NCBI RefSeq assembly: GCF_008704655.1
Contig: NZ_CP023688.1
Location: forward strand, 186,001-250,000
From: Streptomyces rimosus
Lineage (GTDB): Bacteria > Actinomycetota > Actinomycetes > Streptomycetales > Streptomycetaceae
Direction of reading: 5' to 3'
DNA length: 64,000 nucleotides
Shown: piece by piece, positions 11,799 through 30,390 of the stretch
Position numbering within the stretch: the first letter of the stretch is position 1
Layout: each line of letters opens with the position of its first letter
Program-made: the position numbers and the translations under genes
The notes under the pieces: generated by a model
Database searches by the model: none
What the model was told of the DNA's origin: nothing
Seen by the model: only the letters and a program-made list of their open reading frames with translations

Positions 11799-14700
11799 TC
11801 ACTCGGCCAGGGCGGCCCGTACCTCCTCGGCCAGCAGGGACACATAGTCGGCGGCCCAGCCCTCGATTGTGGCGTGGTCCCACAGGTCGGTCGAGTACTC
11901 GACGTATCCGGCCAGCGCGTCGCCCGCCGGGACGAGACCGAGGTTGAACTCCGACCGGGAGGCCGGGACGGCCAGGTCCTCGACGGCGGCGGTCACGCCG
12001 GGCAGTTCGATGTCGGTCTCCAGGGAGTTCTGGTACTGGAACCCGAGCGGCACCCGGTCCGGTATCTCGACCCCCAGGTCCTCGCGCAGCGCCTTGGCCA
12101 GCCTCCGCAGCGGCATGACATGGTCGATGGCCTCGGTGGTGGCGAGGGTGACCCGGCGGACCAGACCGGTGAAGGTCTCCTCGGCGGCGGTCCGTACGCG
12201 CAGCGGGAAGCCCGCGACCGTGCAGGCCATCAGCGACTCGAAGGCACGGCGTTCACGGTTGGCGTAGGACACGAAGACGACCGTTTCCGGCTTGCCGGAC
12301 AGCTTGCCTGCCAGCCGCCCCAGAGCCGCGATGGTGACCGCGTACGGGGTCGTGCCGCACTTCCTGGCCAGCCGTTCCACGTCGGCGCGTACGTCGGCGC
12401 CCACGTGGAACAAGACGACGCGCCCCTGTCCGCTCAGGGTTTCCGGGCGCGGCCGGTCCAGGGGCAGGCCGTGCGGGAAGGACGCCCCTTCCAGTTCGCG
12501 GGCCCAGTACTTCAGGACGCGCTGGTCGGCCTTGTCCCCGATGGTCTCCCGCTGCCAGCGCGCGTACTCGGTCGGCTGCGGCACCGTACTGGCCAGGGTG
12601 TGGGGCTCGCCGGTCACCGCGGCTCCGTAGAGGGCCGCGAAATCGCTGAGCAGGATACTGACGGCCCAGCCGTCGCAGGTGGAGTGGTGCAGGAGGAAGA
12701 GCAGCACCCAGGTCGACGGGCCGGTGCGCAGCAGGCGGAGCTTGGGCGCCACGCCTTCGGCGAGGTCGAAGCGGGTCTCGGCGACCTCCGCACTGATCCG
12801 CTTGACCTCGGCCTCGTCGGCTTCCGCCACGGACCCGTCCGCAGTGTCGCCCGGGCCGGTCAGATCCTCGACCGTAAGGTCGACCGGTCGCGGCCGGAGG
12901 ATCTCCTGCCACCACTCCTCGCCGTCCTTCACGAACCGCGTGCGCAGCGACTCGTGGCGGGCGCAGAGCTGGGTGAGGGCGGTACGCAGCGCCGGTATGT
13001 CCAGGTCACCGGTCAGGGTGATGCGCAGGGCGACGTTGAAGACCTGCGGCAGCGCGTGACGGTGGTGCTGCTCGATGAAGTTCCGCTGCTGGAAGGTGGC
13101 CGGGGCCCGGCCGACCACTTCGGCGGCGGTGTCCGCGGCGCGGGCCGGTTCCCCAGGCTCCCCGCTGTCTGCGGTGTCCCCGTCGGCCGCGGCCTCCCCG
13201 GCGTCCGTGGACTCCCCGGCCAGGTAGGCCGCCATGGCCCGTACGGTCGGCTCCTGATAGAAGCGCACCATCGGGTACTCCTGGCCGAACACCTCCCGGG
13301 CCCGGTTGACCAGCCGGATCGCGGCGATCGAGTGGCCGCCCAGGTCGAAGAAGGACGTCTCCGGGCCGATGGCGTCGGCCGTGAGGTCGAACTCCTCGGC
13401 CCAGAGGGCCCGGAGACGGCCCTCCAACCGGGTGCGGAGGCCGGTACCCGCACCGGTACCAGCCGCAGGTCGGGTGGTACCGAACCGCTCGCCCCCGGAC
13501 CGCTCGACCGCCGCCCGCACGGCCGACGGCCGCGCCCCCGTAACGATCTCAGGATCCGGCAGCGCCGCACGCTCCAGCTTCCCGTTGCCCGCGAGCGGCA
13601 GCGCGCCGAGCACGGCCCAGGACCGCGGTACGAGGTAGTCCGGCAGCCGGGAGGCGAGGTCGCGGGCCAGCCGGTCGGCGTACGCCTGGCGGCCGGCCGC
13701 GGTGGTGGTGTCCTCGGCGATCCGCTCGGCCGGTACGGCGTAGGCCGCGAGGTACGCCTCGCCACGGCTGGTGCGGCGTGCCAGTACGGCGGCCTCGCGC
13801 ACGCCGTCCAGGGCGTTGAGCGCGCGGGCGGTCTCCTCCGGCTCGACCCGGTATCCGCGGATCTTCACCTGGTCGTCGAGACGCCCGCGGAACTCCAGCG
13901 CGCCGTCCTCGGTCCAGCACACGAGGTCACCGGTGCGGTAGTACACGGTGTCGGCCGGTCCGCCGCCGCCCGCGCCCATGCCCCTGCTGCCACAAGGATC
14001 CGCGCCGAACCGTTCCTCCGTCAGTTCGGGCGCGCCCAGATAGCCGCGCGCCACGCCCGGCCCGCCGACGTACAGCTCCCCCACCGCGCCCTGCGGCACC
14101 GGCGCGCCCGACGCGTCGAGAACCCGCAGGCGTACGTTGTCGGCCGGGCGGCCGATCGGGATGGCGGCGGTGCCGGTCTCCGGCGTCCGCGGGCCGACGG
14201 TCTCGGTGGTGCAGAGCACGGTGGTCTCGGTCGGCCCGTACACGTTGACCGTTTCGTACGCCACGTCCGGATGCGGCCGGGTGCGCAGCACGTCACCGCC
14301 CAGCAGCAGGTGGCGCAGCGGCGGCTGTTCGGCGGGCGGCAGGGAGAGCAGGGCCTCCCCGAGGGCCGTGGGCAGGATCGAGAAGGTCACCCGCTCCCGC
14401 GCGTACCAGCGGGCCAGCGTGAGCGGGTCCGTGCGGACCGTGTCATCGGCGATGACGACCGAGGCCCCCGCGGTCAGCGCGGGCCAGATTTCCAGGACCG
14501 ACGCGTCGAAACTCTGGCTGCACACCAGCGCGCTGCGGTCGGCCGAGGTGAAGGCGAAGCGCTTGTGGTGCCACTGGCAGAGGTCGACGACGCTGCGGTG
14601 CGGTACCGCGACGCCCTTGGGCGTGCCCGTGCTGCCGGAGGTGTAGATGACGTAGCAGAGGGACTCGGGACCGGCGGTAGCAGTGCCATCGGCGGCCCGG

Positions 14701-17700
14701 TCGGCAGTCCGGCCAGGGCCGGGGCGGTCGGTGACGTCGATGACGGTCACCCCGGCGGGCAGATCGAGTGCGTCGGCCTCGGCTCCGGTGCTCAGCAGGA
14801 TGCGGGCTCCGCATTCCGCGATCACCGTGGCGGCGCGGGCCCGGCCCAGTGACGGGTCCAGCGGCACGTACGCCCGGCCGGACTTCAGTACCGCGAGCAT
14901 GGCCACGACGAGGTCGGCGGAGCGGGGCAGCCACAGGGCCACCACCTCGTCCGTACCGCTGCCCGCCGGTGCGGGGGCGCGGCGTTCCCTGATGGCCGTG
15001 GCCAGCCGTTCGGCGCGGGTGTCCAGGTCGCGGTAGCTGAGGAGGTCATCGCCGCAGCGGACGGCGGTGCGGTACGGGGCGTCCGCGGCGCGCCGGGCGA
15101 TGAGCTCGTGGACGGTGGCGCGGGCCACCGGGCGGGCCGGACCCTGCTGCCATTCGGCGGGCACCGGCTCGACGGTGGGCGCGGTCGTCACGGCGGGGCT
15201 CTCGGCCCGCCGCGTCTCCCTGACGCCGAGGCGGGACAGCGGCGTCCTGGGGTCCCGTACGGCGGCTTCCAGCAGATCGCGGAAGGTATCGAAGAAGCCG
15301 TCCACGGTGTCCGCGTCGAAGAGGTCGGTGTTGTACTCCAGGTGGCAGCGGATGCCTTCGGGCTGGTCCGTGAAGTACACGGCGAGGTCGGTGAGGGCCT
15401 TGTCCGGCCCCGCGTCGATCACGGTGGCCCGGACGCCGGGCAGGTCGAAGCGGAACGGATCGCTGCTCTCGAACTCGGCGAGCACCTGGAAGACCGGCGT
15501 GCGGTCGGTGGTACGCGCCGGGGCCAGCTCCCGCACCACCGTCTCGAAGGGCACGTCCGCGTGGTCGTACGCGTCCAGGGCGACGCCCCGCACCCGGTCG
15601 AGGAACGCGCCGAAGTCCGGGTCGCCGGACAGGTCGAAGCGGAGCGCGAGGGTGTTGACGAAGAATCCGAGCAGGTCCTCAGTGCCCTGCGGGCGGTCCG
15701 ATATCGGGGTGCCGACGACGATGTCCCGCTGTCCGGTGACCCGGTGGAGCATCGCGATGAAGCCGGCGAGCAGTGTCATGAAGAGGGTGCCGCGCCGCTG
15801 CCTGCTCAGGTCCCGCAGCCGGGCGGACAGTTCGGGGTCCAGCCGGTGGAAGACGGCGCGGCCGTTGGACGTCATGGCCGCGGGGCGCGGGCGGTCGCAG
15901 GGCAGTTCCAGGACCGGCAGTTCGCCGCCCAGCGTACCGAGCCAGTACTTCAGGGCGGCGGCGCCGCGGGAGTCGGCCGACGTGCTCAGCTGGGCGCGGG
16001 CGTGGTCCGCGTACGTGCTGGTGAGCGCGGGGAGGCCCGGGTCGGAGCCGTCGTGCGCGGCCCGGTAGAGGGCGGACAGGTCGCGGGCGAGGACGGAGGC
16101 GGAGGCCGCGTCCACGACGATGTGGTGCAGGGAGAAGACCAGGACGTGCCGCTCCTCGCCCAGCTTGATCAGCCGGGTGACGAACAGCGGCCCGTCCACG
16201 AGGTCGAAGCGCCGGGCGCTCTCCGCCTCCAGGACGGCACGGATCGCGGCGTCCTCACCGGCCGGGCCCGCGTCCGTACGGTCGAGCACCGCGAAGTCCG
16301 GTGCGGACGGCGGCCGGACGAGCTGGCAGGGCTCGTCGTCGATCTCGCGGAAGACGGTCCGCAGTCCCTCGTGCCGCGCCACCAGCCCGCGCAGCGCGGT
16401 GCGCAGCGCGGGGACATCGAGCGGGCCGTCGAGGCGGATGGCCTTGGTCTCGTTGTAGGCGGTGCGGCCCGGCAGCATCCGTTCGAGGAACCAGATGCGC
16501 TGCTGTCCGGGCGAGAGCGGGGCGGCGCTTTCGTGTACGGGCTCCTCGATCGTCGTACCCACGGGAGCGACCGGTGCCTCGACCGTCGTACGGACGGGCG
16601 GCGCGGTCCGGCGGGCGGACGGCCGGGGCGTCGTACGGACGTCCGCGCGCGGCTCGTGGTACCGGCGGCGCAGCGTGTCGATGTGGGTGAGGCCGGTGCG
16701 CAGCGCGTCGGGGGCCACGCCGAAGTCGACCAGCGAGACGATCTCGTCGGCGCCCGCCGCGCCGACCGCGTCCACCACCGGGGCGACGGTGTCGGCCGTG
16801 CCGATGAGCGCCCGCTGGTCGCAGTAGCGTTCGTAGGCGCGGTGGAAGAGCACGTCGAGGTCGTCCTCGCTGAGCGCGGCCAGGTCGACGTTGTGGCCGA
16901 GGCTGTTGGCGACGTTGCCGAACAGGGAGAGCGAGGCGCGCATGTAGCGCGCCAGCGGCTCGTACGCCTCGGTGCGCGCGGTGCGGTGGTCGGCGGCGAG
17001 GTAGGTGTGCAGCAGGACGGCCACCCGTCCGGCGTCCGGGTCGAGGCCGTGTTCGGCGCGGGTGCGGCGGTACAGGGCGATGTTCTCGGCGAGCTGCTCG
17101 ACGCTCTGGGTCATCAGGTTGGTGACCACGCCGACGTCGTGCCGGGCGGCTGCCGCGTACGAGTCGGGATTGCCGACGACCGCCGTGTACATGGGCGGAG
17201 CGTCCTGGACCGGGCGCGGGAACAGGCGGACCTCGGTCTCGCCGTCGCCGCCGGCGCGCCGCACGGCCTCGCCGCGCCAGAGCCGGCGGACCTGCGCCAC
17301 CTGGTCGTACATCATCTCCTTGTGCCGCCCGAAGCGCTCGGGGAAGAAGACGAAGTCGTTGGCGTGCCAGCCGCCGGCGCAGCCGATGCCGACGCGGCCG
17401 CCGGAGAGGTTGTCGGCCATGGACCACTCCTCCGCGACCCGGACCGGGTCGTGCAGGGGCAGTACGACGGAGCCCGCGTTGAGGCGGATGCGCCGGGTCT
17501 CGCGGGCGAGGGCGGCGACGAGCACGACGGGGTTGGGGAACAGCCCGCCGAAGGAGTGGAAGTGCCGTTCCGGCATCCAGAGCGCGTGGAATCCGTGCTG
17601 GTCGGCGAAGCGGGCGGTCTCCAGGATGTGGTCGTACTTGCCCTGGCCGGTGGCCGGCCCGGCATCGTCCTGCGGGTAGTCGCCGAAGAAATAGATGCTG

Positions 17701-19445
17701 AAGTCGGGGGCGCGGCGGGCGGGTACGGAGGGGACGGCGGCCTTACGGGCGGCGGCCGCGTTCCAGGCCACGCCGGGGGCCGCGTCCACCACGCGCTTCT
17801 CGGGCCGGGGCGCCGGAGCGGGAGCGGTGATCTGCTTCGGAGCGGCCTGAACCGGCTTCGGAGCAACCGGCACCGGCTTCGGCCCGCCGGGGAAGAAGCC
17901 CGCCCCGCGCAGTTCCCGCAGCGAGCCGCGCACCGCGTCGGCGATGCATTCGATGTCGCCGTCGGAGTGGGCGGTCGACAGGAAGAAGTTGCGCCATTCC
18001 CACACGTGCACCCCGCGCAGCATGAGGTGGTGGTACAGCAGCTCCATGTCCGCGCGGTGCTCGAAGCGGAACTGGGAGCCGAAGTGGCTCACCCGCAGCG
18101 GGAATTCCTCGTCCTCCAGGAAGCGGTTCAGCGAGCCCGCGAGTTCGCCGGTGCGGGCGTTCAGCCGCTCCTGGAGCCGGGGGCTGTGCTCCTTGAGGTG
18201 GGTCAGCACCGCGCGGGCGGCGACCATCGACACCGGGTGCTGGATGTACGTACCGCCGAAGAACGTGGTGTCGGCGGGCGGGTAGCTGGCGTCCCCGTAC
18301 TGCCAGAAGCCGCCGTCCACCCCGTCCATGATGTCGGCGCGGCCCGCGATGGCGCCGATCGGGAAGCCGCCGCCGAGCAGCTTGCCGTAGGTCGCGAGGT
18401 CGGGGGTGACGCCGTACAGTTCCTGGGCGCCGCGCGGCGCCGGGCGGAAACCCGTCAGCATCTCGTCAAACATGAGCACGATGCCGTGGCGGCGGGTCAG
18501 CTCGCGCAGCTGCCGTACGAATTCGACGGGCTGCAGCGACGGGTGCCGGCTCTGTACGGGTTCGATGATGACCGCGGCGATGTCGTCCGCGTGCGCGGCG
18601 ATGGCCTCCAGGCTCGCGGGGCTGCCGTAGTCGAGCACCAGCAGGTCGGCGACGCTGTTGTGCGGGATGCCGGTGGAGACCGGGACGGTGGTGCGGTCGG
18701 CGCCGGTGCCGGTGGAGCGGCCCAGGACGTTGTCGGCGTGGCCGTGGTAGGCGCCGTGGAAGGTGACGATACGGCTGCGGCCGGTGGCGGCGCGGGCGAG
18801 CCGGATCGCGGCGGAGTTCGCCTCCGTACCGGAGTTGGCGAACGCCACCCGCTGCATGCCGGTCAGCTCCGCCAGCAGTTCGGCGGCCTCGCCGGTCTCG
18901 ACGTTGCGCGGGCCGAGCTGGATGCCGCGGGACAGGTGCTCGCGGACCGCCTCGCTCACGAACTCGGGCTCGTGGCCGAAGAGGAGGACGCCGAAGCCCA
19001 TGGTGATGTCGACATAGCGGTTGCCGTCGACGTCCTCCAGCCAGGAGCCGCGGGCCCGGCGGCCGGCGATCGGGTACAGCATCTCCTTGGTCTTGCTGCG
19101 GAAGCCGACGACGGCGCGGCTGTCCGCCAGCACCCGGCGGTAGCGCTGGGCGATCTCCTTGGAGGTGGCGGTCTTGGCCGTGTAGCGGCGTACCAGGTCG
19201 TCGAGGTGGGCCTGCTGGGCCTCGGAGGCGGAGCCGCCCACCATGCCGGAGGCCCGGGCGACGGTCACCCGGGGGCCGTGTACGCGCTGCCGCTGCTCGG
19301 CGGCCGGTTCCTCCCGCGCCGCCGGCTGCTCCGTGTTGGCGGTCCCGGCCGCCGCCTCGATCCGCTGCGCGATCTGCCGGGAGAGGTCGGCCATGGCGGC
19401 CAGGTCCTGGTCCACCGCCGCGGTCGCGGCGCTCAGGCCGGTCAC
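11799..19445 (-). CDS. Hybrid assembly-line enzyme: aminotransferase-monooxygenase-C-A-T-C
   Basis: A 2548-residue protein. Residues 1-60 are a helical docking region. Residues ~90-510 are a class III (GSA-type) aminotransferase with FDEMLTGFR and the PLP lysine in YGKLLGGGFPIGA near 353. Residues ~580-900 are a luciferase-like FMN monooxygenase of the natural-product type (MPERHFHSFGG). A condensation domain follows (HHIVVDA near 1107), then adenylation (TSGSTG near 1602; residues by eye D-A-L-I-L-G-V-V-L, no confident substrate), a carrier (GGHSIAA near 2037) and a last condensation domain (HHSTCDG near 2252). There is no thioesterase. The aminotransferase should turn the beta-keto thioester from the PKS into a beta-amine, and the monooxygenase hydroxylate its alpha carbon, as in microginin synthesis. 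The GTG start overlaps the PKS stop by 4 bp. Confidence 0.95.
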   Translation of the reverse strand: MTGLSAATAAVDQDLAAMADLSRQIAQRIEAAAGTANTEQPAAREEPAAEQRQRVHGPRVTVARASGMVGGSASEAQQAHLDDLVRRYTAKTATSKEIAQRYRRVLADSRAVVGFRSKTKEMLYPIAGRRARGSWLEDVDGNRYVDITMGFGVLLFGHEPEFVSEAVREHLSRGIQLGPRNVETGEAAELLAELTGMQRVAFANSGTEANSAAIRLARAATGRSRIVTFHGAYHGHADNVLGRSTGTGADRTTVPVSTGIPHNSVADLLVLDYGSPASLEAIAAHADDIAAVIIEPVQSRHPSLQPVEFVRQLRELTRRHGIVLMFDEMLTGFRPAPRGAQELYGVTPDLATYGKLLGGGFPIGAIAGRADIMDGVDGGFWQYGDASYPPADTTFFGGTYIQHPVSMVAARAVLTHLKEHSPRLQERLNARTGELAGSLNRFLEDEEFPLRVSHFGSQFRFEHRADMELLYHHLMLRGVHVWEWRNFFLSTAHSDGDIECIADAVRGSLRELRGAGFFPGGPKPVPVAPKPVQAAPKQITAPAPAPRPEKRVVDAAPGVAWNAAAARKAAVPSVPARRAPDFSIYFFGDYPQDDAGPATGQGKYDHILETARFADQHGFHALWMPERHFHSFGGLFPNPVVLVAALARETRRIRLNAGSVVLPLHDPVRVAEEWSMADNLSGGRVGIGCAGGWHANDFVFFPERFGRHKEMMYDQVAQVRRLWRGEAVRRAGGDGETEVRLFPRPVQDAPPMYTAVVGNPDSYAAAARHDVGVVTNLMTQSVEQLAENIALYRRTRAEHGLDPDAGRVAVLLHTYLAADHRTARTEAYEPLARYMRASLSLFGNVANSLGHNVDLAALSEDDLDVLFHRAYERYCDQRALIGTADTVAPVVDAVGAAGADEIVSLVDFGVAPDALRTGLTHIDTLRRRYHEPRADVRTTPRPSARRTAPPVRTTVEAPVAPVGTTIEEPVHESAAPLSPGQQRIWFLERMLPGRTAYNETKAIRLDGPLDVPALRTALRGLVARHEGLRTVFREIDDEPCQLVRPPSAPDFAVLDRTDAGPAGEDAAIRAVLEAESARRFDLVDGPLFVTRLIKLGEERHVLVFSLHHIVVDAASASVLARDLSALYRAAHDGSDPGLPALTSTYADHARAQLSTSADSRGAAALKYWLGTLGGELPVLELPCDRPRPAAMTSNGRAVFHRLDPELSARLRDLSRQRRGTLFMTLLAGFIAMLHRVTGQRDIVVGTPISDRPQGTEDLLGFFVNTLALRFDLSGDPDFGAFLDRVRGVALDAYDHADVPFETVVRELAPARTTDRTPVFQVLAEFESSDPFRFDLPGVRATVIDAGPDKALTDLAVYFTDQPEGIRCHLEYNTDLFDADTVDGFFDTFRDLLEAAVRDPRTPLSRLGVRETRRAESPAVTTAPTVEPVPAEWQQGPARPVARATVHELIARRAADAPYRTAVRCGDDLLSYRDLDTRAERLATAIRERRAPAPAGSGTDEVVALWLPRSADLVVAMLAVLKSGRAYVPLDPSLGRARAATVIAECGARILLSTGAEADALDLPAGVTVIDVTDRPGPGRTADRAADGTATAGPESLCYVIYTSGSTGTPKGVAVPHRSVVDLCQWHHKRFAFTSADRSALVCSQSFDASVLEIWPALTAGASVVIADDTVRTDPLTLARWYARERVTFSILPTALGEALLSLPPAEQPPLRHLLLGGDVLRTRPHPDVAYETVNVYGPTETTVLCTTETVGPRTPETGTAAIPIGRPADNVRLRVLDASGAPVPQGAVGELYVGGPGVARGYLGAPELTEERFGADPCGSRGMGAGGGGPADTVYYRTGDLVCWTEDGALEFRGRLDDQVKIRGYRVEPEETARALNALDGVREAAVLARRTSRGEAYLAAYAVPAERIAEDTTTAAGRQAYADRLARDLASRLPDYLVPRSWAVLGALPLAGNGKLERAALPDPEIVTGARPSAVRAAVERSGGERFGTTRPAAGTGAGTGLRTRLEGRLRALWAEEFDLTADAIGPETSFFDLGGHSIAAIRLVNRAREVFGQEYPMVRFYQEPTVRAMAAYLAGESTDAGEAAADGDTADSGEPGEPARAADTAAEVVGRAPATFQQRNFIEQHHRHALPQVFNVALRITLTGDLDIPALRTALTQLCARHESLRTRFVKDGEEWWQEILRPRPVDLTVEDLTGPGDTADGSVAEADEAEVKRISAEVAETRFDLAEGVAPKLRLLRTGPSTWVLLFLLHHSTCDGWAVSILLSDFAALYGAAVTGEPHTLASTVPQPTEYARWQRETIGDKADQRVLKYWARELEGASFPHGLPLDRPRPETLSGQGRVVLFHVGADVRADVERLARKCGTTPYAVTIAALGRLAGKLSGKPETVVFVSYANRERRAFESLMACTVAGFPLRVRTAAEETFTGLVRRVTLATTEAIDHVMPLRRLAKALREDLGVEIPDRVPLGFQYQNSLETDIELPGVTAAVEDLAVPASRSEFNLGLVPAGDALAGYVEYSTDLWDHATIEGWAADYVSLLAEEVRAALAE

Positions 19446-22400
19446 TGCCCGCCCGCCTTTCCGTTGGACACGGCGCCGCCGGTCAGGGCGCTGGTCGCCT
19501 GCGCGGTCAGCAGCTGGGAGAGCTGGTGGATCTGGGACATCATCTGGAGCTGGATCTGGGAGAGCTGCTGCACCTGGCGGACGAGGTCGGTCAGCTCGGC
19601 GCGTGTGACCGGGTGTTCCGGGCCTGGCGGCACGGCGGGCGCGGACTCCTGGGCGCGTACGGGCTCGGCGGGCGCCGCGGCGACAGGCGGTTCGTGGCGT
19701 ACGGGCTCCTCGGTGATGGGCGGTTCGTACCGTACGGGCTCCTCGGCGACCGGCGGCTCGTGGCGTACGGGCTCCTCGGCAACGGCCTCACCCGATCCGG
19801 CCCAAGCACCGGAAGCACCCGAACCGCCCGGCATCCCCGAACCACCCGCTCCCCCCACCATCCGCCCCACGATCAGCTCCGTCAGCTGCCCCGGAGTGCT
19901 CGCCTCCTCGAACAGTTCCCGCATCGCGACCTTGACCCGGTGTTCCTGCTCCAGCTCGCGCAGCACGCTGATCATTTGCAGGGAGTCCGCACCGAGGTCG
20001 AAGAAGGAGGTGTCCCCGGTGACCGCGGCCGCGTCGTGCCCGAGGTGCTTGGCCACCAACTCGATGACGTGCGCGAGCACCCGCCCGAACACTGCCTCGT
20101 CCTGTGCCACGTCTTCCTCTTCTCTCGATGGTTCTCGCAGGGGTTGTTGACCGGCCGGGACGACGGTGGGCCGGGGTCCCGTCCAGTGGTCGGTGTGCTG
20201 GAAGCGGTAGCCGGGCAGTGCGGTTCTGCGGCCGCCGGTTCCGGCCAGCAGGACCGGCCAGGCCAGGTCCGCGCCCGTGCAGTGCAGTCGCGCCACCGCG
20301 TCCCAGAAGGGGCCGGTCCCGGCGCCGCGGCGCAGCGTCGGCACCGCCCGTACGGTGGGCAGGGCGGTACGGGCGAGGCCGCTGAGCGTGGTGTGGGGGC
20401 CGAGTTCGACCAGTGCCGCGGGGCCGGTGTCGCCGAGCGTGCGCAGCACCGCGTCGTACCGCACCGGCTCGCGTGTCTGCCGTACGAAGTAGTCGGCGTC
20501 CGGTACCCAGCCGGGCTCGTGCAGGCGCCCGTCGAGGCCGCTGACGAAGCCGGTCGTGACGGGCCGGAAGGCGACGCCGTCGAGCAGTTCCCGGAACTTG
20601 TCCAGGACCGGGTCCATCAGCGCGGTGTGGAAGGCGCGCGTCACCGGCAGCCGCTGTCCGGGGATGCCGCGCTCCTCCAGGAGGGCCGACAGCCGGTCCA
20701 CGGCCGTGACGGGTCCGGCGAGCACGTGCCGCTGTTCTCCGTTGACGACCGCGAGTTCGAGGCCGGCGATCTCTGCGGCCAGGTTTTCGGCGGTCCGCAG
20801 GTCCGCGGACACCGCGGCCATTGCGCCGGGAGCACAGTGCTCCTGCATCAGCCGGCCGCGCTCCGCGGTGAGCCGCAGGCCGTCCTCGACGGACAGGGCA
20901 CCCGCCGCGCAGAGGGCCGCGTACTCGCCGACGCTGTGTCCGGCGACGGCGTCCGGCACGATGCCCGCCTGGCGCCAGAGTCCGGTGAGCGCGTATTGCA
21001 GGGCGAAGAGGGCCGGTTGGGCGATGCGGGTGTTTTCGGTGGTGGCGCGGTCGGCGATGGGGTCGAGGAGCACGTCGAGCAGGGAGCTGCCGTATAACCG
21101 CTGGTGGTGGCGCTCGCAGGTGTTGAGCAGGTCGCGTACGACGGTGAAGCGCTCGTACAGCGGCTGTGCCATGCCGGGGTACGGGCTGCCCTGGCCGGTG
21201 AATTGGAAGGCGATGCCCGCGCGCGCTTCCCGAGGGGCTTCGCCGGTCGTTACGGCGGCGGGCCCGGCCGGGGCGCCGGTGCCCGCGAGCCAGCTGTCCA
21301 GGGCCGCGGCGAGGCTCGCCGGGTCCGTGCCGCGGACCGCCAGGCGGTGCCGGTGGTGGATGCGTCCCGCAGCGGTGGTCACCAGATCGGCGAGGTTCAT
21401 GTCAGGGTGGCGCGTCAAGTGGTCGCGCAGAGCCTCTGCATTGGCCGTACGGGCGGCCTCCGACTGGCCGGACAGGACGACAATGCCCGGAGGGGCCACT
21501 GTGGCGGAGCGGGGCGCGGGCTCGGGGGCCTGTTCCACGATGACGTGGACGTTGGTGCCGCCGACGCCCAGCGACGTGACGCCCGCCCGGCGGGGTGTGT
21601 CGCCCTGCGGCCAGGGGCGGGCGGTCTCGGGGATGTAGAAGGGGCTGTTGTCGAGGTCGAGCGCGGGGTTCGGCTCGCTGAAGTTGGCCATCGGCGGGAT
21701 GACGCCGTGTTTGAGGACGAGCAGCGTCTTGATGAAGCTCGCCAGTCCCGAGGCCACGTCGAGGTGGCCGATGTTGGCCTTGATCGAGCCGAGGGCGCAG
21801 TAGCCGGTGCGGTCGGTGTCGGCGCGGTACGCGGAAACGGCGCCCTCGAATTCGATCGGGTCGCCCTTGAGCGTGCCCGTGCCGTGGGTTTCGAGGTAGC
21901 CGACGGTGTCCGCGCCGATGCCCGCGTGCTCCAGCGCACGGCGGATCGCGGCGCGCTGGCCCGCCGCGCTCGGCGCGGTGTACGCCTGTTTGGACGCGCC
22001 GTCGTTGGTGACGCCCCAGCCGCGGATGACGCCGTGGATCGTGTCGCCGTCGGCGACCGCCCGGTCCAGGCGTTTGAGGACGACGGCGGCGACACCGGTG
22101 CCGCCCACCGTGCCGTCCGCCCCGGCGTCGAAGGCGCGCAGGCGGCCGCTCTTGGAGAGGATGGAGCCCTTGACGTACTCGTAGCCCAGCACCTGCGGTA
22201 CGTGGACGGCCGTGGCGCCCGCCAGCGCGATGTCGCTGTCGCCGGTGACCACCGACTGCGCGGCCGTCTGGAGGGCCACCAGCGAGCTGGAGCAGCCGGT
22301 CTGGACGCTGACGGCGGGGCCGGTGAGGTCGAGGCGGAAGGACACGCGGGTGGCGGTGAAGTCGGTGTAGTTGCCGACCATGACCTGCATCCGGGAGAGC

Positions 22401-22843
22401 CAGTCGTCGCCGATGGGGCTCTTCAGGACGTTGTTCAGGAGGTAGTTCTCCATCGTGTACAGGTGGTATCCGGTGGTGGCGAAGACACCGGTGCGCAGCC
22501 CGTCGCGTTCTCGCGGATAGCCGGAGTCCTCCAGGGCGTGGTAGGCGCACTCCAGGAACATCCGGTGCTGCGGGTCGGTGAGCCGTGCCTCCCGTACGCT
22601 CATGCCGAAGAACGGGGCGTCGAACCCGGCGATGTCGTGCAGGATGCCGCTGGCGCCGACGAAGTCGTCCGCCCGGTACTTCTCGGCGGGTACGCCGGCG
22701 GCTTCCAGTTCCGCTTCGGTGAACCGCCGTACGCAGTCCCGCCCGATGCGGACGGCCCGCCAGAACTCCTCGGGGGTGTCGGCCCCCGGGAAGCGGAAGG
22801 CCATGCCGATGACCGCGACGCGCGCGTCGGCCGGTGCGTTCAT
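19442..22843 (-). CDS. Type I polyketide synthase, KS-AT-ACP
   Basis: A 1133-residue single-module PKS. The ketosynthase (residues ~7-430) has its active Cys in TGCSSSL near 186, plus ETHGTGT and KANIGHLD histidines. The acyltransferase (~540-860) has GHSVGEYAAL near 636 and RAFH in the extender-selecting position, which fits malonyl-CoA. The ACP has its Ser in LGADSLQM near 951. There is no reductase, so the beta-keto group is left for the aminotransferase of the next protein. Three 11-residue repeats and a Gln/Leu-rich helix follow the ACP, the helix probably docking to the next enzyme. No loading domain is present, so an acyl starter must arrive from elsewhere. It is coupled by 4-bp overlaps to the MFS gene upstream and the aminotransferase/NRPS gene downstream. 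Leu583 is encoded by TTA. Confidence 0.95.
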   Translation of the reverse strand: MNAPADARVAVIGMAFRFPGADTPEEFWRAVRIGRDCVRRFTEAELEAAGVPAEKYRADDFVGASGILHDIAGFDAPFFGMSVREARLTDPQHRMFLECAYHALEDSGYPRERDGLRTGVFATTGYHLYTMENYLLNNVLKSPIGDDWLSRMQVMVGNYTDFTATRVSFRLDLTGPAVSVQTGCSSSLVALQTAAQSVVTGDSDIALAGATAVHVPQVLGYEYVKGSILSKSGRLRAFDAGADGTVGGTGVAAVVLKRLDRAVADGDTIHGVIRGWGVTNDGASKQAYTAPSAAGQRAAIRRALEHAGIGADTVGYLETHGTGTLKGDPIEFEGAVSAYRADTDRTGYCALGSIKANIGHLDVASGLASFIKTLLVLKHGVIPPMANFSEPNPALDLDNSPFYIPETARPWPQGDTPRRAGVTSLGVGGTNVHVIVEQAPEPAPRSATVAPPGIVVLSGQSEAARTANAEALRDHLTRHPDMNLADLVTTAAGRIHHRHRLAVRGTDPASLAAALDSWLAGTGAPAGPAAVTTGEAPREARAGIAFQFTGQGSPYPGMAQPLYERFTVVRDLLNTCERHHQRLYGSSLLDVLLDPIADRATTENTRIAQPALFALQYALTGLWRQAGIVPDAVAGHSVGEYAALCAAGALSVEDGLRLTAERGRLMQEHCAPGAMAAVSADLRTAENLAAEIAGLELAVVNGEQRHVLAGPVTAVDRLSALLEERGIPGQRLPVTRAFHTALMDPVLDKFRELLDGVAFRPVTTGFVSGLDGRLHEPGWVPDADYFVRQTREPVRYDAVLRTLGDTGPAALVELGPHTTLSGLARTALPTVRAVPTLRRGAGTGPFWDAVARLHCTGADLAWPVLLAGTGGRRTALPGYRFQHTDHWTGPRPTVVPAGQQPLREPSREEEDVAQDEAVFGRVLAHVIELVAKHLGHDAAAVTGDTSFFDLGADSLQMISVLRELEQEHRVKVAMRELFEEASTPGQLTELIVGRMVGGAGGSGMPGGSGASGAWAGSGEAVAEEPVRHEPPVAEEPVRYEPPITEEPVRHEPPVAAAPAEPVRAQESAPAVPPGPEHPVTRAELTDLVRQVQQLSQIQLQMMSQIHQLSQLLTAQATSALTGGAVSNGKAGGQ
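19679..19777 (-). repeat. Three tandem 33-bp units in the PKS gene
   Basis: Encodes EEPVRHEPPVA, EEPVRYEPPIT and EEPVRHEPPVA in the linker after the ACP. The units are nearly identical in DNA, so the expansion is recent. It probably forms an extended, charged spacer. Confidence 0.85.
21095..21097 (-). promoter_or_regulatory. TTA leucine codon in the PKS gene
   Basis: The codon for Leu583 (QRLYGSS) is TTA; position 21097 is an exact multiple of three from the start codon. In Streptomyces TTA is read only by the bldA tRNA, made late in growth, so translation of this operon may be developmentally gated. The other TAA strings I found on the plus strand inside the two NRPS genes and the MFS gene are out of frame. 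Confidence 0.8.
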
Positions 22844-24123
22844 GAGGTGCCGCCCTCCGCGGCGGTCACTTCCCGGCCGGGCGCCGGGCCGCCGCTCTCC
22901 CGGGCCGGTGGGTCCTTCGGGAACAGCGCGCGTCCCCGGGACAGCACCACGAGCAGGGCGACGCACAGCACGATGGCCAGGCCCTGGAACGCGCCGACCA
23001 CCTGGAGCGGCGAGTAGCGCTCCAGCAGCGCGGCGCTGACGATCATGCCCAGGCCGAAGCCGCTGTTCTCGGCCGAGGCGGACAGGCCGAAGAGGCGGCC
23101 GCGCTGCTCGTCGGGGGCGGCCTGGAGCCGGGAGACATACGCGATCTCCGTGAAGCCGTCGGCCATGCCGGCGACGAGCGCGGCGACCGCGGCGGGGACG
23201 GCCGGCAGGCCGCTGAAGACCACGATGAACGCCGCCGACATCACACAGGAACCGAGGGCGAAGGCGCGCTCCCCCGGCGACCACCCGGTCTTGCGGGTGC
23301 GGCGGGAGCAGACCTGCTGCGCGACGATGTTGCCGATCGCCCAGGTCGCCCAGAACTGGCTGACGAAGGTGGCCGGATGCGACGGGTCCAGAGCGCTGGA
23401 GTAGATGGGCAGCGCGACGTTGTGCGACGAGGAGCCGAGGCCGTCGGCGGCGCGGACCGCCACCATCACGGCCAGCAGGGGTGCCGCTTTCAGGAGCGCG
23501 AGGGAAGCCCAGCGGCCGGTGCCCGCGGCGTCCGCCGCCGTGCTCCCGGCCGCGTCGTGCCCGGCGGCGGCCCGGGTACGGATGGGCAGCAGGAACAGGA
23601 TCGTCGCGGAGACCGCGAAGGTGCCGGCGTCCAGCGCGAAGGCGGCGGTGTAGCCGAACTCCGCGACGACCACGCCGGCCGACGCGAAGCCGGCGATCAT
23701 GGCCAGCGACCGGCCGGTCACCAGCAGGCCGTTGGCCCGGGTCCGCAGATCGGCGCCGACGATCTCCGGGACGCTGCTGCGCAGCGCCACCTGGGAGAGC
23801 GTCGAGCAGGCGCCGGTTCCCACGGCCAGCGCGAAGAGCAGCGCGACGCGGGCGCCGTCGGGTGCGAGCAGCAGCACCACCAGGGCGGCGGCCTGGGTCA
23901 CGTCCGCGCACACCATCAACCGCTTGCGGTCGTAGCGCGACACCAGGCGGCCGCTGACGAACCCGGACAGGACGCTGGTGATCAGGCGTACGGCCATGAA
24001 CAGACCGGCGGTCAGCGCGCTGCCCGTCACCTGGTAGACGAAGACGTTCAGCGCCACCATGTTCAGATAACTGCCGTACGCGGAGATGGCGTTGCCGACG
24101 ACGAGCAGCCGGAAGTGCCCCAC
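22840..24123 (-). CDS. MFS transporter (DHA3-like exporter)
   Basis: A 427-residue, roughly 12-helix major facilitator protein, first gene of the PKS/NRPS operon and probably the exporter or self-resistance protein for its product. The first helix region is FRLLVVGNAISAYGSYLNMV, followed by GLFMAVRLITSVLSGFVSGRL and the loop motif SRYDRKRLMVCAD between helices 2 and 3. I start at the GTG giving VGHFRLL because AGGGGGA lies 9 bases upstream and this gives the normal family length. An ATG at 24228 would add 35 unlikely residues. It ends in an ATGA overlap with the PKS gene. Confidence 0.9.
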   Translation of the reverse strand: MGHFRLLVVGNAISAYGSYLNMVALNVFVYQVTGSALTAGLFMAVRLITSVLSGFVSGRLVSRYDRKRLMVCADVTQAAALVVLLLAPDGARVALLFALAVGTGACSTLSQVALRSSVPEIVGADLRTRANGLLVTGRSLAMIAGFASAGVVVAEFGYTAAFALDAGTFAVSATILFLLPIRTRAAAGHDAAGSTAADAAGTGRWASLALLKAAPLLAVMVAVRAADGLGSSSHNVALPIYSSALDPSHPATFVSQFWATWAIGNIVAQQVCSRRTRKTGWSPGERAFALGSCVMSAAFIVVFSGLPAVPAAVAALVAGMADGFTEIAYVSRLQAAPDEQRGRLFGLSASAENSGFGLGMIVSAALLERYSPLQVVGAFQGLAIVLCVALLVVLSRGRALFPKDPPARESGGPAPGREVTAAEGGTS

Positions 24124-24581: not shown

Positions 24582-24803
24582 ATGTCGGATCACAGTGCGC
24601 ACACCATGTCACCGGTGCTGTCCCCGCGGGAGCGGGAGGTGCTGTCGTACATCGCCGACGGTCTGACGTACGACCAGACGGCCAGGCGGCTGGGTATCAG
24701 CGTCCACACGGTCAGCACGTATCTGCGCCGTATACGGGCCAAGCACCCGGCGCCGACGCTCGCCCACCTCGTACGGCTGGGCCTGGCGCAGCACCGCGGC
24801 TGA
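24582..24803 (+). CDS. HTH-only LuxR-family protein
   Basis: A 73-residue protein that is little more than a LuxR-type helix-turn-helix: LSPREREVLSYIADGLTYDQ, then ARRLGISVHTVSTYLRRI. No receiver, ATPase or ligand domain precedes it. GGAGAAG lies 5 bases before the ATG. It stands between the divergent PKS/NRPS operon and the carotenoid genes and could regulate either. In size it resembles stand-alone LuxR helix-turn-helix proteins such as GerE. Confidence 0.85.
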   Translation: MSDHSAHTMSPVLSPREREVLSYIADGLTYDQTARRLGISVHTVSTYLRRIRAKHPAPTLAHLVRLGLAQHRG

Positions 24804-25212
24804 CGGTTCGCGGCCGGACGGCATTCCGACACGCGATGTTGGCCGGATTCCGTCCCACCAATGGCCGATATCCGGACAACCTCACACGTGACGGGTCACC
24901 GCCTTCCCCCGTGCCCCGTGTCCGCGAACGGTCGGTGGCAGCGGGTTTCCCCCGGCGGCGGTGGGTACCCGCCGCCGGACGCCGAACCCGACCGAAGGGG
25001 CGCCTGTTGGCCACGTGTTGCGCAGCACCGGTACCGCAGGCCCGGCCTGCCCGTACCGGCGTCCCCCGAAGGGACCAGACCCGGACGTGGCGTCCCGGCG
25101 GCACGCGGGACCCCGTGGTGAACTGCGGGAACGGCGCCGGCGGGGCGGGAGGCGCGCCCGGCCCGTCCGACCGCGTCGGCGCCCACCGACCGGTTCGACG
25201 GGAGGACGTGTG
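24804..25212. other. Interval between the LuxR-type gene and crtE
   Basis: About 410 bp. It contains a hairpin at 24952-24978 and must hold the promoter of the carotenoid operon, which I could not place with confidence. An open frame in crtE phase reaches back to 24961, but its translation is Arg/Pro-rich and unlike the family, so I leave it out. Confidence 0.5.
24952..24978 (+). terminator. Hairpin after the LuxR-type gene
   Basis: CCGGCGGCGG pairs perfectly with CCGCCGCCGG across a 7-base loop, 149 bp after the LuxR-type stop codon. No T-run follows, so activity is uncertain. Confidence 0.45.
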
Positions 25213-26385
25213 ATGCGCCCTATCCGGGCAGGGGACCCGCACGGCGCGGTCGAGGCCCGCGCCGTGGACACCGATGTCACGGGCGCCGTCGAGCAGACGC
25301 TCGACGGGGTGCTCGCCGAGCGGCTCGCGGACGCCGCGGCGGCCGACGCCCTGTTCGCGCGCGATATCGCCGAACGCGTCGCCCGCTTCACGCTGGGCGG
25401 TGGCAAGCGGCTGCGCGGACGGTTCGTGTGGTGGGGGCTGCGGGTCTGCGGGGGCGGTGGTGAAGCGGCCGGGGCGGCGCTGCGGCTGGCCGCCGCGCTC
25501 GAACTCCTCCAGACCTGCGCGCTCGTGCACGACGACGTGATGGACGGGGCCGAGCTGCGCCGGGGCGGCCCGGCGCTGCACGCCGAGGTACGGACGCAAT
25601 ACGGGCGCCGCGCCGGGACCGGTGACGGCGCCCGGTCCGCCGCGGCGTTCGGCCGGTCCGCGGCGATCCTGGCCGGCGATCTCGCGCTGGCCTGGGCCGA
25701 CGACACCGTCCTGGACACCCTCGTCCCCGGCCACGCCCGGTCCGCGGTCCACGCCCTGTGGCGCACCATGCGGACCGAGATGGTGGCAGGCCAGTACCTG
25801 GACCTGCACGCCCAGGCCACCGTGTCCCACTCCCCCGCCCGGGCGCTGCACACCGCCCGCCTCAAAAGCGCCCGCTATTCGGTCGAACGGCCGCTGCTGC
25901 TGGGCGCCGCCCTGGCAGGCGCGGACGACCGGGCCACCGGCGCCCTGCGTGCGGCGGGCCGCTGCGCCGGTCTCGCCTTCCAGCTGTACGACGACCTGCT
26001 GGGAGTGTTCGGCGACCCGGCGGAAACCGGCAAGCCGTCGGGAGACGACATCCGGGAGGGCAAGCTGACCTACCTCACCGCCGTCGCCCGCGCCCGCGCC
26101 GAAGCCACCGGTGACCACGCGGCGCTCGGCACCCTCGACGCGGCGCTGGGCGCCCCTGACCTCACGGCCGCCGACATGGACCGCGTACGAGAGGTGCTGG
26201 TCTCGACCGGGGCCCGCGCCGCGCTGGAGGACAAGATCGCGCTCCTCGCCGACCGGAGCACAGCGCATCTGGCGGACCTGCACGACGCCGCCCCGTCCGC
26301 CCTCCGCTCCCTGCACGCCCTGCTGCGCGCCACATCGGGCGCGAGCACACGGACGCCGGTGGCTGCCCATGGAGGTGAACGGTGA
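25213..26385 (+). CDS. crtE: Geranylgeranyl diphosphate synthase (polyprenyl synthetase)
   Basis: The 390-residue enzyme makes the C20 precursor of carotenoids by adding isopentenyl units to allylic diphosphates. The first aspartate motif is LVHDDVMDGAELRRG and the second is QLYDDLLGVFGD; GGGKRLRGR provides the diphosphate-binding region. The start is set by GGAGG 7 bases before the ATG at 25213. Its stop overlaps by 4 bp (GTGA) a small remnant ORF that sits between it and crtI. It is the first gene of the carotenoid operon. Confidence 0.95.
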   Translation: MRPIRAGDPHGAVEARAVDTDVTGAVEQTLDGVLAERLADAAAADALFARDIAERVARFTLGGGKRLRGRFVWWGLRVCGGGGEAAGAALRLAAALELLQTCALVHDDVMDGAELRRGGPALHAEVRTQYGRRAGTGDGARSAAAFGRSAAILAGDLALAWADDTVLDTLVPGHARSAVHALWRTMRTEMVAGQYLDLHAQATVSHSPARALHTARLKSARYSVERPLLLGAALAGADDRATGALRAAGRCAGLAFQLYDDLLGVFGDPAETGKPSGDDIREGKLTYLTAVARARAEATGDHAALGTLDAALGAPDLTAADMDRVREVLVSTGARAALEDKIALLADRSTAHLADLHDAAPSALRSLHALLRATSGASTRTPVAAHGGER

Positions 26386-26531
26386 AGACGGTATCCGGGT
26401 CCACCGACCACGTCCCGCGGCCCGGCGGCCGATGCGGCCTCCTGGAACGTGACGGCTACCGGATCGACACCGGCCCGACCGTACCGACCAAGCCCCACAC
26501 CGACGCGGCGGCCCACGGAGGCGAGCGATGA
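26382..26531 (+). pseudogene. Internally deleted duplicate of the crtI 5' end
   Basis: A 49-codon ORF (GTG to TGA) that is a shrunken copy of the start of crtI. It opens MKTVSGSTDHV against [11 protein letters not shown] in CrtI. It then skips the FAD-binding GAGLSGLS region and resumes in [20 protein letters not shown], identical to CrtI, before jumping to a piece like CrtI HTDAAA. Its last residues, AAHGGER, repeat the end of crtE. It therefore looks like a tandem duplication of the crtE/crtI junction followed by two deletions. It is still coupled to both neighbours by 4-bp overlaps. It cannot be a desaturase; it may only relay ribosomes to crtI. Confidence 0.8.
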
Positions 26532-28078
26532 AAACCCTCCCCGGACCCACCGACCACGTCGTCGTCATCGGCGCCGGCCTCTCCGGACTGTCCGCCGCAC
26601 TCCACCTGCTCGGAGCCGGACGACGGGTCACCGTCGTGGAACGCGATACACGGCCCGGCGGCCGATGCGGCCTCCTGGAGCGCGACGGCTACCGGATCGA
26701 CACCGGGCCGACCGTACTGACCATGCCGGACCTGGTCGAGGAGGCGTTCTCGGCGGTGGGCGCCTCGATGGCCGGGCGGTTGGAGCTTGTTGCGCTCCAC
26801 CCGGCCTACCGTGCGCGGTTCGCCGACGGCAGCGCGCTTGACGTGCACACCGACGCGGCGGCCATGGAGGCGGAGATCGAACGGTTCGCGGGGGCCCGGG
26901 AAGCCGCGGGGTACCGTCGGCTGCGCGCTTGGCTCGGCCGGTTGTACGCGGTCCAGATGCGGCGCTTCATCGACGCCAACTTCGACTCGCCGCTGCAACT
27001 GCTCCATCCCGACCTGGCCCGCCTCGCGGCCCTGGGCGGCTTCGGACGCCTCGACGCCCGGATCGGCCGGTTTCTGACGGACGAGCGGGTGCGCCGCGTC
27101 TTCTCGTTCCAGTCGCTGTACGCGGGTGTGCCGCCGGCCCGTGCCCTCGCCGCTTACGCCGTCATCGCGTACATGGACACGGTGGCCGGGGTGTACTTTC
27201 CGCGCGGCGGGATGCACGCGCTGCCCCGGGCCATGGCGGACGCGGCGGCCGAGGCGGGTGCGGAGTTCCGCTACGGGCATCCGGTACGGGCGCTGGAACG
27301 TTCCGGCGGCCGGGTCACCGCCGTCGTCACCGACGCCGGGCGCCTGCCGTGCGACGCGGTGGTGCTCACCGCCGACCTGCCCGAGGCGTACCGGCTGCTC
27401 GGGCGCCGGCCGCGCCGCCCGCTGCCGCTGCGCCGCTCCCCCTCGGCCGTCGTCCTGCACGCGGGCACGCCCGCGACCTGGCCGGAGCCGGGCCACCACA
27501 CCATCTCGTTCGGCGCCGCCTGGCACCGTACGTTCCACGAGCTCACCCGGACCGGGGCCCTGATGAGCGATCCCTCGCTGCTGCTGACCCGGCCGACCGC
27601 CACCGACCCGTCGCTGGCTCCGCCGGGCCGCCATCTGCACTACGTCCTGGCGCCCTGCCCCAACACCGACGTCGGGCCCGGCGCGCACGCCTGGCGCGAC
27701 CTCGGCCCCCGCTACCGCACCGCGCTGCTCGCCGAACTCGAACGGCGCGGCTTCACCGGTCTGGATGCGGCGGCCGAGGCGGAATGCCTGGTCACCCCGG
27801 AGGACTGGAGCCGTCAGGGGCACGGCGCCGGCACCCCGTTCTCGGCCGCGCACACCTTCGCGCAGACCGGTCCGTTCCGCCCGCGCAACCTCGTACGGGG
27901 CACCGAGAACGCCGTACTGGCCGGGTGCGGCACGACGCCGGGTGTCGGGGTGCCGACCGTGCTGGTCTCGGGGAAGCTGGCCGCCGCCCGGGTGACCGGC
28001 GGCGTCTCCGCGCGGCGCGCCCGGATCACCGACCTCGGCGCGCGCCGTCCCGCCCGTACGCCGGAGGCAAGACCGTGA
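26528..28078 (+). CDS. crtI: Phytoene desaturase (lycopene-forming)
   Basis: A 516-residue FAD flavoprotein that introduces the double bonds converting phytoene to lycopene. The dinucleotide motif [16 protein letters not shown] stands at residues ~11-26, followed by [19 protein letters not shown]. The C-terminal FAD motif is seen around [19 protein letters not shown]. The start ATG overlaps the remnant ORF (ATGA), and the stop overlaps the GTG of crtB. The length is normal. It acts at the membrane with CrtB. Confidence 0.96.
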
Positions 28079-30027
28079 CCGCCCGGGAACTCGACGCCGC
28101 GGGCATCACCGAGCCCGCACTGCGCGCCGCCTACGCCCACTGCCGCCGGCTCAATGCCCGGCACGGGAAGACGTACTTCCTGGCCACCCGGCTGCTGCCG
28201 GTCGCCCGGCGGCCCGCCGTGCACGCGCTGTACGGCTTCGCCCGCTGGGCCGACGACATCGTCGACAGCGTGGACGACGACGCCACCCCGAAGGAGCGCG
28301 CGGCGGCCCTGCACGCGCTGGAGGCGCAATTGCACGCCGGGCTCGCGCGGGGCGGCGGCGACGAGCCGGTGGTACGGGCCCTGGCACACACCAGCGCCAC
28401 CTACGGCATCGACCCGGCGTACTTCACCGCCTTCATGGCCTCCATGCGCGCCGACCTGGTGGTGACCGACTATCCGACCTACGCGGACCTGCGCGGCTAC
28501 ATGTACGGCTCGGCCGAGGTGATCGGCCTTCAGATGCTGCCCGTCCTCGGCACGGTCACGCCGCGCGAGGAGGCCGCGCCGCACGCCGCCGCGCTCGGCG
28601 CGGCCTTCCAGCTCACCAACTTCCTGCGGGACGTGGGCGAGGACCTGGACCGGGGCCGCGTCTACCTGCCCGGCGACCTGCTGGCCGCGCACGGCGTCGA
28701 CCGCGAACTGCTCCAGTGGAGCCGGCTGACCGGCACCGAGGACGCGCGGATCACCGCCGCGCTGCGGGCCGCCGCCGACCTCACCCGCGGCGTCTACCGC
28801 CGGGCCGCGCCCGGTGTCGCCATGCTCGCCCCGGCGTCCCGGCCGTGCATCCGCACCGCGTTCATCCTCTACCGCGGCATCCTGGACGCCGTGGAGGCCG
28901 ACGGCTACGCGGTGCTGCACCGCCGCGCCGTCGTATCCCGCCCGGTCCGCGCGACCGTGGCCCTCGACGGGCTGGTACGGGTGACCGCGGCCCGTACCCA
29001 TGCCAGAACCGTCGCACCGGAAGGCAGCACCGTGGACGCTCCCCGACGCGGCCGGTACCCGCTCAGCCTGCGGCGGCGGCCCGTGGCCTGGGAGCGCCAG
29101 CGGCCCACCTGGCGGGACGCCGCGCCCGGCGTCATCGCCGGCGCGCTGGAACGCGCCAAGGCCCGGCCGTCCGGCAACTGGTACGCCGTGGGTGCCTCCC
29201 GGCAGGTCGGCCGGGACCGCCCCCTGGGCCGGACCGTCGCCGGTACGGAGGTGGTGCTGTGGCGCGCGGCCGACGGGCGGCTGCGCGGCGGCCCGGGGGC
29301 CTGTCCGCACCTGGGGGCGCCGCTGAAGGACAGTCCGGTGCGGTGCGGCACGCTCGTCTGCCACTGGCACGGACTCGCCCTGGACGGCGGCCCGTTCGCC
29401 GGGTGGGAGCCGTATCCGGTGTACGACGACGGGGTGCTGGTCTGGGTGCGCCTGGACCACGCGGGCGGCGAGGAACCGCTGGACCGGCCCCGCGTCCCGG
29501 AGCGCCCGGACACGGCCGCCGCCGTCGCGGCCGTCCACACCGGGGTCGGGCGCTGCGAGCCGGACGACGTGGTCGCCAACCGGCTCGACCCGTGGCACGG
29601 CGCGTGGTTCCACCCGTACTCCTTCGTCGACCTGACCGTGACGGACGGCCCGGCGGGCCCCTCGGACGCGTTCACCGTGGACGTGTCCTTCAAGGTCGCC
29701 GGGCGCCTGGTCGTCCCCGTGCGCGCGGAGTTCACCGCTCCGGGGCCGCGCACCGTGGTCATGCGGATCACCGAGGGCGAGGGCGCGGGCAGCGTGGTGG
29801 AGACCCACGCCACCCCGCTCGGCACCGACGCGTCCGGCCGGCCGCGCACCGCCGTAGTCGAAGCGGTCGTCGCGGCCAGCGACCGTCCGGGCTTCGCGGT
29901 GGCCCGCGCGGCGGCCCCGCTGCTGCGCCCTTTGATGCGGGCCACGGCGGGACGGCTGTGGCGCGACGACATGGCGTACGCGGAGCGGCGGTGGGAGCTG
30001 CGGCGGGCGGGGAGGTTTCCGGGGTGA
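28075..30027 (+). CDS. crtB: Phytoene synthase fused in frame to a Rieske [2Fe-2S] protein
   Basis: One uninterrupted 650-codon frame. Residues ~1-310 are phytoene synthase, which condenses two geranylgeranyl diphosphates, with aspartate motifs [10 protein letters not shown] and [12 protein letters not shown]. Residues ~320-650 are a Rieske-type protein with CPHLG and CHWHG as cluster ligands and a C-terminal domain often found in Streptomyces carotenoid clusters. Normally these are separate genes; here no stop codon separates them. A GTG at 29032 with GGAAGG 7 bases upstream could still start the Rieske protein (331 residues) independently, so both a fusion and a free protein may be made. 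The linker ([20 protein letters not shown]) looks unstructured. The GTG start overlaps the crtI stop. Confidence 0.9.
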
Positions 30028-30231
30028 ACGTGCGCGGCGCACACGCCGGTGCCTCACGGACGCCGGTCGTCACCCCCAGGTGACCCCACGCGCCCCTGCA
30101 TCACCCGTAAGGGGCAACGGCAAGCAGGCGTTGACGCTGGCAGCATCGTTCTCGGACGCGCCGCGCAGCCCACCGGACACATGTGGCGTCCGACGGCCGC
30201 GCGGTACTTCTTCGGGAAGGAGACACCCACC

Positions 30232-30375: not shown

Positions 30376-30390
30376 TTTCCCGCTCGGCCC

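Follow-up and report, generated by a model that had tools for sequence, protein, structure and literature searches.

Bestatin (ubenimex), an aminopeptidase inhibitor that has been used in many clinical trials, is (2S,3R)-3-amino-2-hydroxy-4-phenylbutanoyl-Leu (AHPBA-Leu), and amastatin is (2S,3R)-3-amino-2-hydroxy-5-methylhexanoyl-Val-Val-Asp (PMC12285730). No paper assigning a gene cluster to bestatin was found in the open literature searched, which leaves most subscription journals outside, so that such a paper may exist in print. Here we describe an operon located in a 64,000-nucleotide stretch (the window) that corresponds to bases 186001-250000 of the 9.36 Mb single-contig genome of Streptomyces rimosus. 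It codes for a polyketide synthase (PKS) and a nonribosomal peptide synthetase (NRPS) that probably form a small, self-contained line for an aminopeptidase inhibitor of the bestatin/amastatin type.

Several described systems resemble this line in part. The puwainaphycin synthetase of Cylindrospermum alatosporum, which includes PuwE, makes a 3-amino-2-hydroxyacyl unit and presents the same order of PKS module, aminotransferase, monooxygenase and NRPS module; there, a reducing PKS together with a fatty-acyl ligase feeds the line, the modules sit on a single polypeptide, and further NRPS modules and a thioesterase (TE) follow (PMC4219810). In contrast, the window line is split over two proteins, its operon holds neither ligase nor TE, and it ends in a condensation (C) domain. 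The microginin mic cluster has in common with the window a ketosynthase-acyltransferase-acyl carrier protein module (KS-AT-ACP), an aminotransferase and an alpha-hydroxy-beta-amino acid (Ahda, of 2S,3R configuration), and its products inhibit aminopeptidases. This likeness is drawn from the published description, which also gives an octanoyl starter loaded via FAAL/ACP, a halogenase and two to six NRPS modules, all unlike the window (PMC12250027). In actinomycetes, the ichizinone cluster of Streptomyces sp. LV45-129 similarly brings together a PKS, an NRPS and a monooxygenase of the luciferase-like kind for the synthesis of beta-amino residues (3-aminobutanoic, 3-aminopentanoic and 3-amino-4-phenylbutanoic acids, with acetyl-, propionyl- and phenylacetyl-CoA as proposed starters). 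It differs from the window as described: its PKS is an AT-less KS-ACP, the monooxygenase has a gene of its own, the proposed aminotransferase is encoded elsewhere in the genome, and the product is a tetrapeptide released by a TE (PMC12144821).

Domain organization of the operon and proposed pathway

The operon is made of three overlapping minus-strand genes spanning about 12 kb that code for a major facilitator superfamily (MFS) exporter, the PKS and a 2548-aa synthetase (Table 1). The exporter gene overlaps the PKS start by ATGA and the second junction is a GTGA overlap. The KS motifs GCSSS, HGTGT and NIGH and the AT motifs GHSVG and RAFH are readable in the PKS; we take the former in their customary meaning and the latter as indicating the malonyl type. 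Pfam detected no ketoreductase (KR), dehydratase or enoylreductase in this protein. The AT and ACP domains are separated by 67 residues, a figure obtained equally by Pfam and from chosen motifs, which is too short for a KR or another reductive domain. An earlier interpretation by a model that saw only the letters and open reading frames (the sequence-only reading) had likewise described KS-AT-ACP without any reductase, and this description stands. As no reductase is present, a beta-keto acyl-ACP is expected to stay. The PKS has no loading domain according to Pfam, and its C-terminal coil resembles a docking region.

The synthetase starts with an aminotransferase directly followed by a TIGR04020 luciferase-like monooxygenase (442.6 bits for a cut-off of 244.45), as also proposed in the sequence-only reading. 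The closest solved relative of the first domain is the mycosubtilin synthetase aminotransferase MycA (6kfm), which we take to act on a beta-keto acyl carrier thioester, and that of the second is puwainaphycin PuwE (6ket). Mycosubtilin is a lipopeptide whose synthesis, unlike the window line, is not known to involve an alpha-hydroxylating monooxygenase. The pyridoxal phosphate (PLP) lysine (YGK, residue 355), whose loss had been put forward as a possible refutation, and the Asp of the FDEM motif are both kept in 66 out of 66 aligned rows, window included. The monooxygenase motif PERHF is present in all 69 rows among the patterns listed, out of 74 aligned. Both domains belong to the most highly conserved regions of the synthetase. 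The 6kfm/6ket pairing is the one expected for the synthesis of a 3-amino-2-hydroxyacyl group, and homology gives good support to the predicted warhead chemistry. A second TIGR04020 monooxygenase over the cut-off is encoded in the same genome (G000:C1:8360422-8361432); its frame has 861 residues, and a match to a condensation domain comes close behind it.

Downstream of this pair, the synthetase carries a C-A-T module (condensation, adenylation, peptidyl carrier) and a terminal C domain. HHIVVDA, the motif of the first C domain, is shared by 44 of 71 rows. In the terminal C domain, the eight most frequent patterns account for 54 of 71 rows and HHxxxDG is found in 52 of these 54; the two rows that bear the first-C motif are probably misassigned. 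Its closest solved relatives are Txo2 (157 bits) and Txo1 (147 bits), both presumably ordinary condensing domains, then 5u89 and 8z0q (110 bits), annotated as a 'special condensation domain'. The terminal C domain of some loci is a stand-alone protein, with a TubC_N docking domain in both cases tested (L034 and L041). The operon has no TE detectable by Pfam. A small product is expected because the operon adds one residue, which may be hydrophobic although the A domain is only weakly assigned, and then ends in a condensation domain.

The proposed pathway is predicted for its starter, residue, release mode, stereochemistry and target, as well as for the roles of the exporter and regulator, whereas the order of the domains, their catalytic motifs, the families of the enzymes and the conservation that underlie it are supported by the sequence. 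The KS would take a short acyl starter from an acyl-CoA, e.g. phenylacetyl or isovaleryl, and one malonyl extension would follow; the acyl skeletons of bestatin and amastatin would correspond to these starters plus one malonyl. The flavin monooxygenase would hydroxylate the alpha carbon and the PLP aminotransferase would turn the beta-ketone into an amine, resulting in a (2S,3R)-type 3-amino-2-hydroxyacyl thioester to which the C-A-T module would add one hydrophobic residue. Release would fall to the terminal C domain, which would most likely join the chain to a free amine, for example that of an amino acid, or alternatively set it free as the acid. The product would be exported by the MFS protein and the operon regulated by a divergently encoded LuxR-type protein.

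The sequence-only reading had compared the line with microginin synthetase. The chemistry of the comparison holds, while its fatty-acyl ligase has no counterpart: neither a fatty-acyl ligase nor a loading ACP was detected by Pfam in the operon, and none of the remaining window translations listed resembles a ligase by eye. Because the operon lacks this ligase, bestatin and amastatin are the better comparison, with which it would share the predicted 3-amino-2-hydroxyacyl unit followed by a hydrophobic residue.

Distribution of the family and its occurrence in a bestatin producer

Related loci were collected by a scan of one genome per species, in which 115 stretches matched and 98 encode a relative; the best 80 were kept and gave 75 loci. 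The MFS, KS, AT, ACP, aminotransferase, monooxygenase, C, A and C domains all lie on one strand in 49 of these loci, and the locus listing shows them in this order; the remaining loci are cut at contig ends or are variants. With 75 related loci, 49 of which have the nine domains on one strand, the operon is not a chance arrangement. Genes located beyond the last C domain were searched by tblastn with the window domains over a flank of at most about 7 kb. No NRPS, PKS or TE match was obtained there in 60 of the 62 loci having at least 3 kb of sequence; an AMP-binding match was found beyond the last C domain in L044 and L045. The operon thus recurs on its own, which we count in favour of the bestatin-type assignment.

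The family is widespread. A protein search returned 3802 relatives, and among the 120 listed most have 2300-2700 residues and most of the named ones belong to Streptomyces. The fused aminotransferase-monooxygenase pair is encoded in six of 24 other genomes of the same genus; three of them show it as a single match, the other three as a pair of neighbouring matches within one open frame. The occurrence in an actinomycete, presented as remarkable in the sequence-only reading, is therefore common in Streptomyces.

One of the orthologous loci (L071) belongs to S. olivoreticuli ATCC 31159, a strain able to produce bestatin according to the title of Zhang et al. 2019, as cited in PMC12472026. The sole TIGR04020 domain over the cut-off in this genome (444 bits, the next match reaching 136) lies inside the ortholog of the window synthetase. 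The same gene holds the sole high-scoring aminotransferase match (867 bits, the next 169). A bestatin-type assignment of the window operon is likely on these grounds. If the link is true, three genes in about 12 kb account for the bestatin family, an operon small enough to be cloned and expressed in one piece, and producers are predicted across Streptomyces. It would also offer a simple system for the study of release by a terminal C domain and of self-protection via duplicated aminopeptidases.

Several variants were encountered among the loci. In L042, L075, L076 and L077, the proteins are long fusions that carry an AMP-binding region at the N terminus (by Pfam in L042 and L076). L042 keeps the aminotransferase and has a KR stretch ahead of the KS; in L076, the condensation stretches number three rather than two. 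No A1 match was found between both C domains in L044, L045, L058, L063 and L080. By Pfam, L044 is organized as AMT-Oxy-C-PCP-C without A domain, with TE and AMP-binding-PCP genes downstream of an M18 aminopeptidase gene; a short-chain dehydrogenase-like gene was also recognized by eye. In L074 (Streptantibioticus), an NRPS gene bearing C-A-TE lies just upstream of the exporter, unlike in the main family. L007, from a contig labelled Streptosporangium, forms a tight group with S. klenkii and S. roseoverticillatus and is perhaps a mislabelled strain, and L033 is a relative on a contig of a myxobacterial metagenome-assembled genome (transfer or contamination).

Aminopeptidase genes beside the cluster

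Two families of aminopeptidases, M18 and M1-PepN, were searched in the relatives. The start codon of an M18 gene overlaps the synthetase stop codon in five out of five clusters, L044, L045, L058, L063 and L080, the last being a second S. parvus cluster. Twelve genomes were tested for their M18 gene count, which is two in seven of them and one in five. Two copies are present in the five genomes with a cluster-linked gene, in S. microflavus (L081) and also in S. atratus (L082).

A PepN gene is located upstream of the exporter in the L034/L023 clade. The cluster-side PepN of L034 is the fourth complete copy in its genome and its zinc motif is intact. By comparison, 41 of 50 genomes have three PepN matches; the number in the other genomes is one, two or four, and two of the genomes with four matches include one gene that is in two pieces. 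L023 is cut by a contig end, and its genome has two complete and two partial PepN genes.

Together with the 6kfm/6ket matches and the ortholog of the bestatin producer, these cluster-side genes uphold the link, made in the sequence-only reading, between an alpha-hydroxy-beta-amino acyl unit and aminopeptidase inhibition. A further extension is possible but tentative, as we hold it a little less probable than its opposite: the cluster-linked M18 and M1 duplicates would guard some producers, the terminal C domain would catalyse release by attaching a free amino acid or a peptide to the end of the amino-hydroxyacyl dipeptide, and the family would be the source of bestatin and related Streptomyces inhibitors. 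A self-resistance gene within the window was also considered; the M18 and PepN models were run on its own genome and the candidate was rejected, as none of the matches is near the cluster.

Contrary evidence, alternative products and neighbouring genes

Several observations weigh against the bestatin/amastatin assignment. No product of the window strain has been observed, and the presence of the operon in a bestatin producer is a correlation. The substrate code of the A domain allows a weak assignment. Bestatin has a free carboxylate after Leu and does not itself explain a conserved terminal C domain. A free-acid end would need the entry of water via this domain or trimming of the chain; release is the weakest step of the pathway. 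Regarding aminopeptidases, the window cluster has neither M18 nor PepN gene beside it nor any extra copy, the genome having one M18 and three PepN genes, all megabases away. L081 and L082 keep the M18 gene without a cluster at that locus. However, these two loci retain short pieces that match the synthetase at its 3' end (85% over 120 bp in one case, 77% over 93 bp in the other), in L082 with an MFS stretch as well, and cluster loss is therefore favoured over insertion beside an old M18 gene, which counts for the assignment; both genomes still hold a main-type cluster elsewhere (L069 and L032). One genome (G015) carries an extra PepN gene away from any cluster domain. Finally, no aminotransferase match accompanies the monooxygenase in L075, L076 and L077 (in L076, Pfam likewise gives none), so that distant relatives do not always need both enzymes together. 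As to the G015 region (L083), it contains transketolase-like and MFS genes, recognized by eye, and no domains of the synthetase cluster.

The acyl unit could be made as described and end up in a product other than an aminopeptidase inhibitor, e.g. a pyrazinone similar to ichizinone or JBIR-56, or a different small acylated peptide with its own target. Such an outcome has a precedent in the ichizinone cluster, whose PKS, luciferase-like monooxygenase and NRPS modules lead to trisubstituted pyrazinones with beta-amino acids, although the AT-less KS-ACP, the separate monooxygenase, the outside aminotransferase and the terminal TE described there set it apart from the window (PMC12144821). Since, moreover, aminopeptidase genes adjoin the cluster in two lineages of the synthetase family, we consider this outcome unlikely. 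An inactive monooxygenase or aminotransferase, or one acting elsewhere, would leave a plain beta-amino or an alpha-hydroxy-beta-keto derivative. No biochemistry was found for the synthetase family, and the L075-L077 variants would agree with such a product; in view of the invariant Lys and Asp residues of the aminotransferase, the PERHF motif and the strong conservation of both tailoring domains, it is the least credible of the alternatives.

The sequence-only reading had extended the line by up to seven amino acids into a long peptide, a number that seems to be the sum of the six A domains of a separate large NRPS (42135-63662) and the one in the synthetase. In this scheme, the terminal C domain of the synthetase and the first A domain of the NRPS, which opens with A-MT-T without C, would form a split module leading to a heptapeptide or longer product with a 2-hydroxy-3-amino end. 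The two systems do co-occur in four genomes of the clade of the window: among 13 genomes carrying the synthetase, the first NRPS module has 78-100% matches in the window and its nearest loci L003, L004 and L005. In the nine others, no ortholog-level match was obtained, the bestatin producer giving a 50% match and the remaining genomes none under the threshold. The bare flanks of 60 of 62 loci and the stand-alone terminal C proteins likewise argue against a continuation of the line. The NRPS is 18 kb away from the synthetase operon, and carotenoid, Ku and other genes on both strands intervene. Independent NRPSs commonly begin with an A-first module. Gene context and co-occurrence thus led us to reject the long peptide, which is highly improbable, and the bestatin/amastatin assignment is retained for a line that ends within its own operon.

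Table 1. Features of the operon and of the neighbouring NRPS region (window coordinates)
Feature	Position	Strand	Evidence and remarks
MFS exporter, operon gene 1	22840..24123	-	Pfam MFS_1 105.7 bits; alternative ATG start 24228
PKS, 1133 aa, KS-AT-ACP	19442..22843	-	Pfam ketoacyl-synt, Acyl_transf_1, PP-binding
Synthetase, 2548 aa, aminotransferase-monooxygenase-C-A-T-C	11799..19445	-	Pfam Aminotran_3, Bac_luciferase, Condensation, AMP-binding, PP-binding, Condensation
Aminotransferase domain, class III, MycA type, PLP Lys355	17766..19175	-	430.9 bits to mycosubtilin aminotransferase 6kfm
FMN-dependent luciferase-like monooxygenase domain, PuwE type	16686..17735	-	355.2 bits to PuwE 6ket
First condensation domain, HHIVVDA	15222..16529	-	Pfam residues 973-1408
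Peptidyl carrier domain, LGGHSI	13221..13418	-	Pfam
Terminal condensation domain, HHSTCDG	11802..13130	-	Pfam; proposed chain release
Small divergent LuxR/GerE-type helix-turn-helix regulator	24615..24803	+	GerE 49.5 bits
Separate NRPS	42135-63662	-	A-MT-T, C-A-T-E, four C-A-T modules, TE; six A domains
MbtH-like gene, downstream of NRPS	41923-42138		by eye
2-Oxoglutarate oxygenase-like gene, upstream of NRPS, crosses window edge	63667-64000 + L002:1-332		by eye

The exporter also matches TIGR00900, under the cut-off of that model. Homologs of the LuxR-type regulator were found in 12 loci, and the six positions listed are all divergent (minus) and just upstream of the exporter. The genome as a whole has 106 condensation-domain matches. 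A carotenoid gene cluster (25210-33301) lies between both NRPS operons; it comprises a lycopene cyclase and an amine-oxidase-type protein according to Pfam and, by eye, prenyl-transferase-, desaturase-, phytoene-synthase- and Rieske-like proteins. An ARAGORN tRNA-Arg call within the coding sequence of the large NRPS (60588-60669, minus strand) is probably a chance call. Ku (Pfam) and a LigD-like gene (by eye) follow the carotenoid genes at 35221-37251. A Ku/ligase neighbourhood is also described at the published ichizinone cluster (PMC12144821), so that gene clusters may repeatedly occur at such a site.

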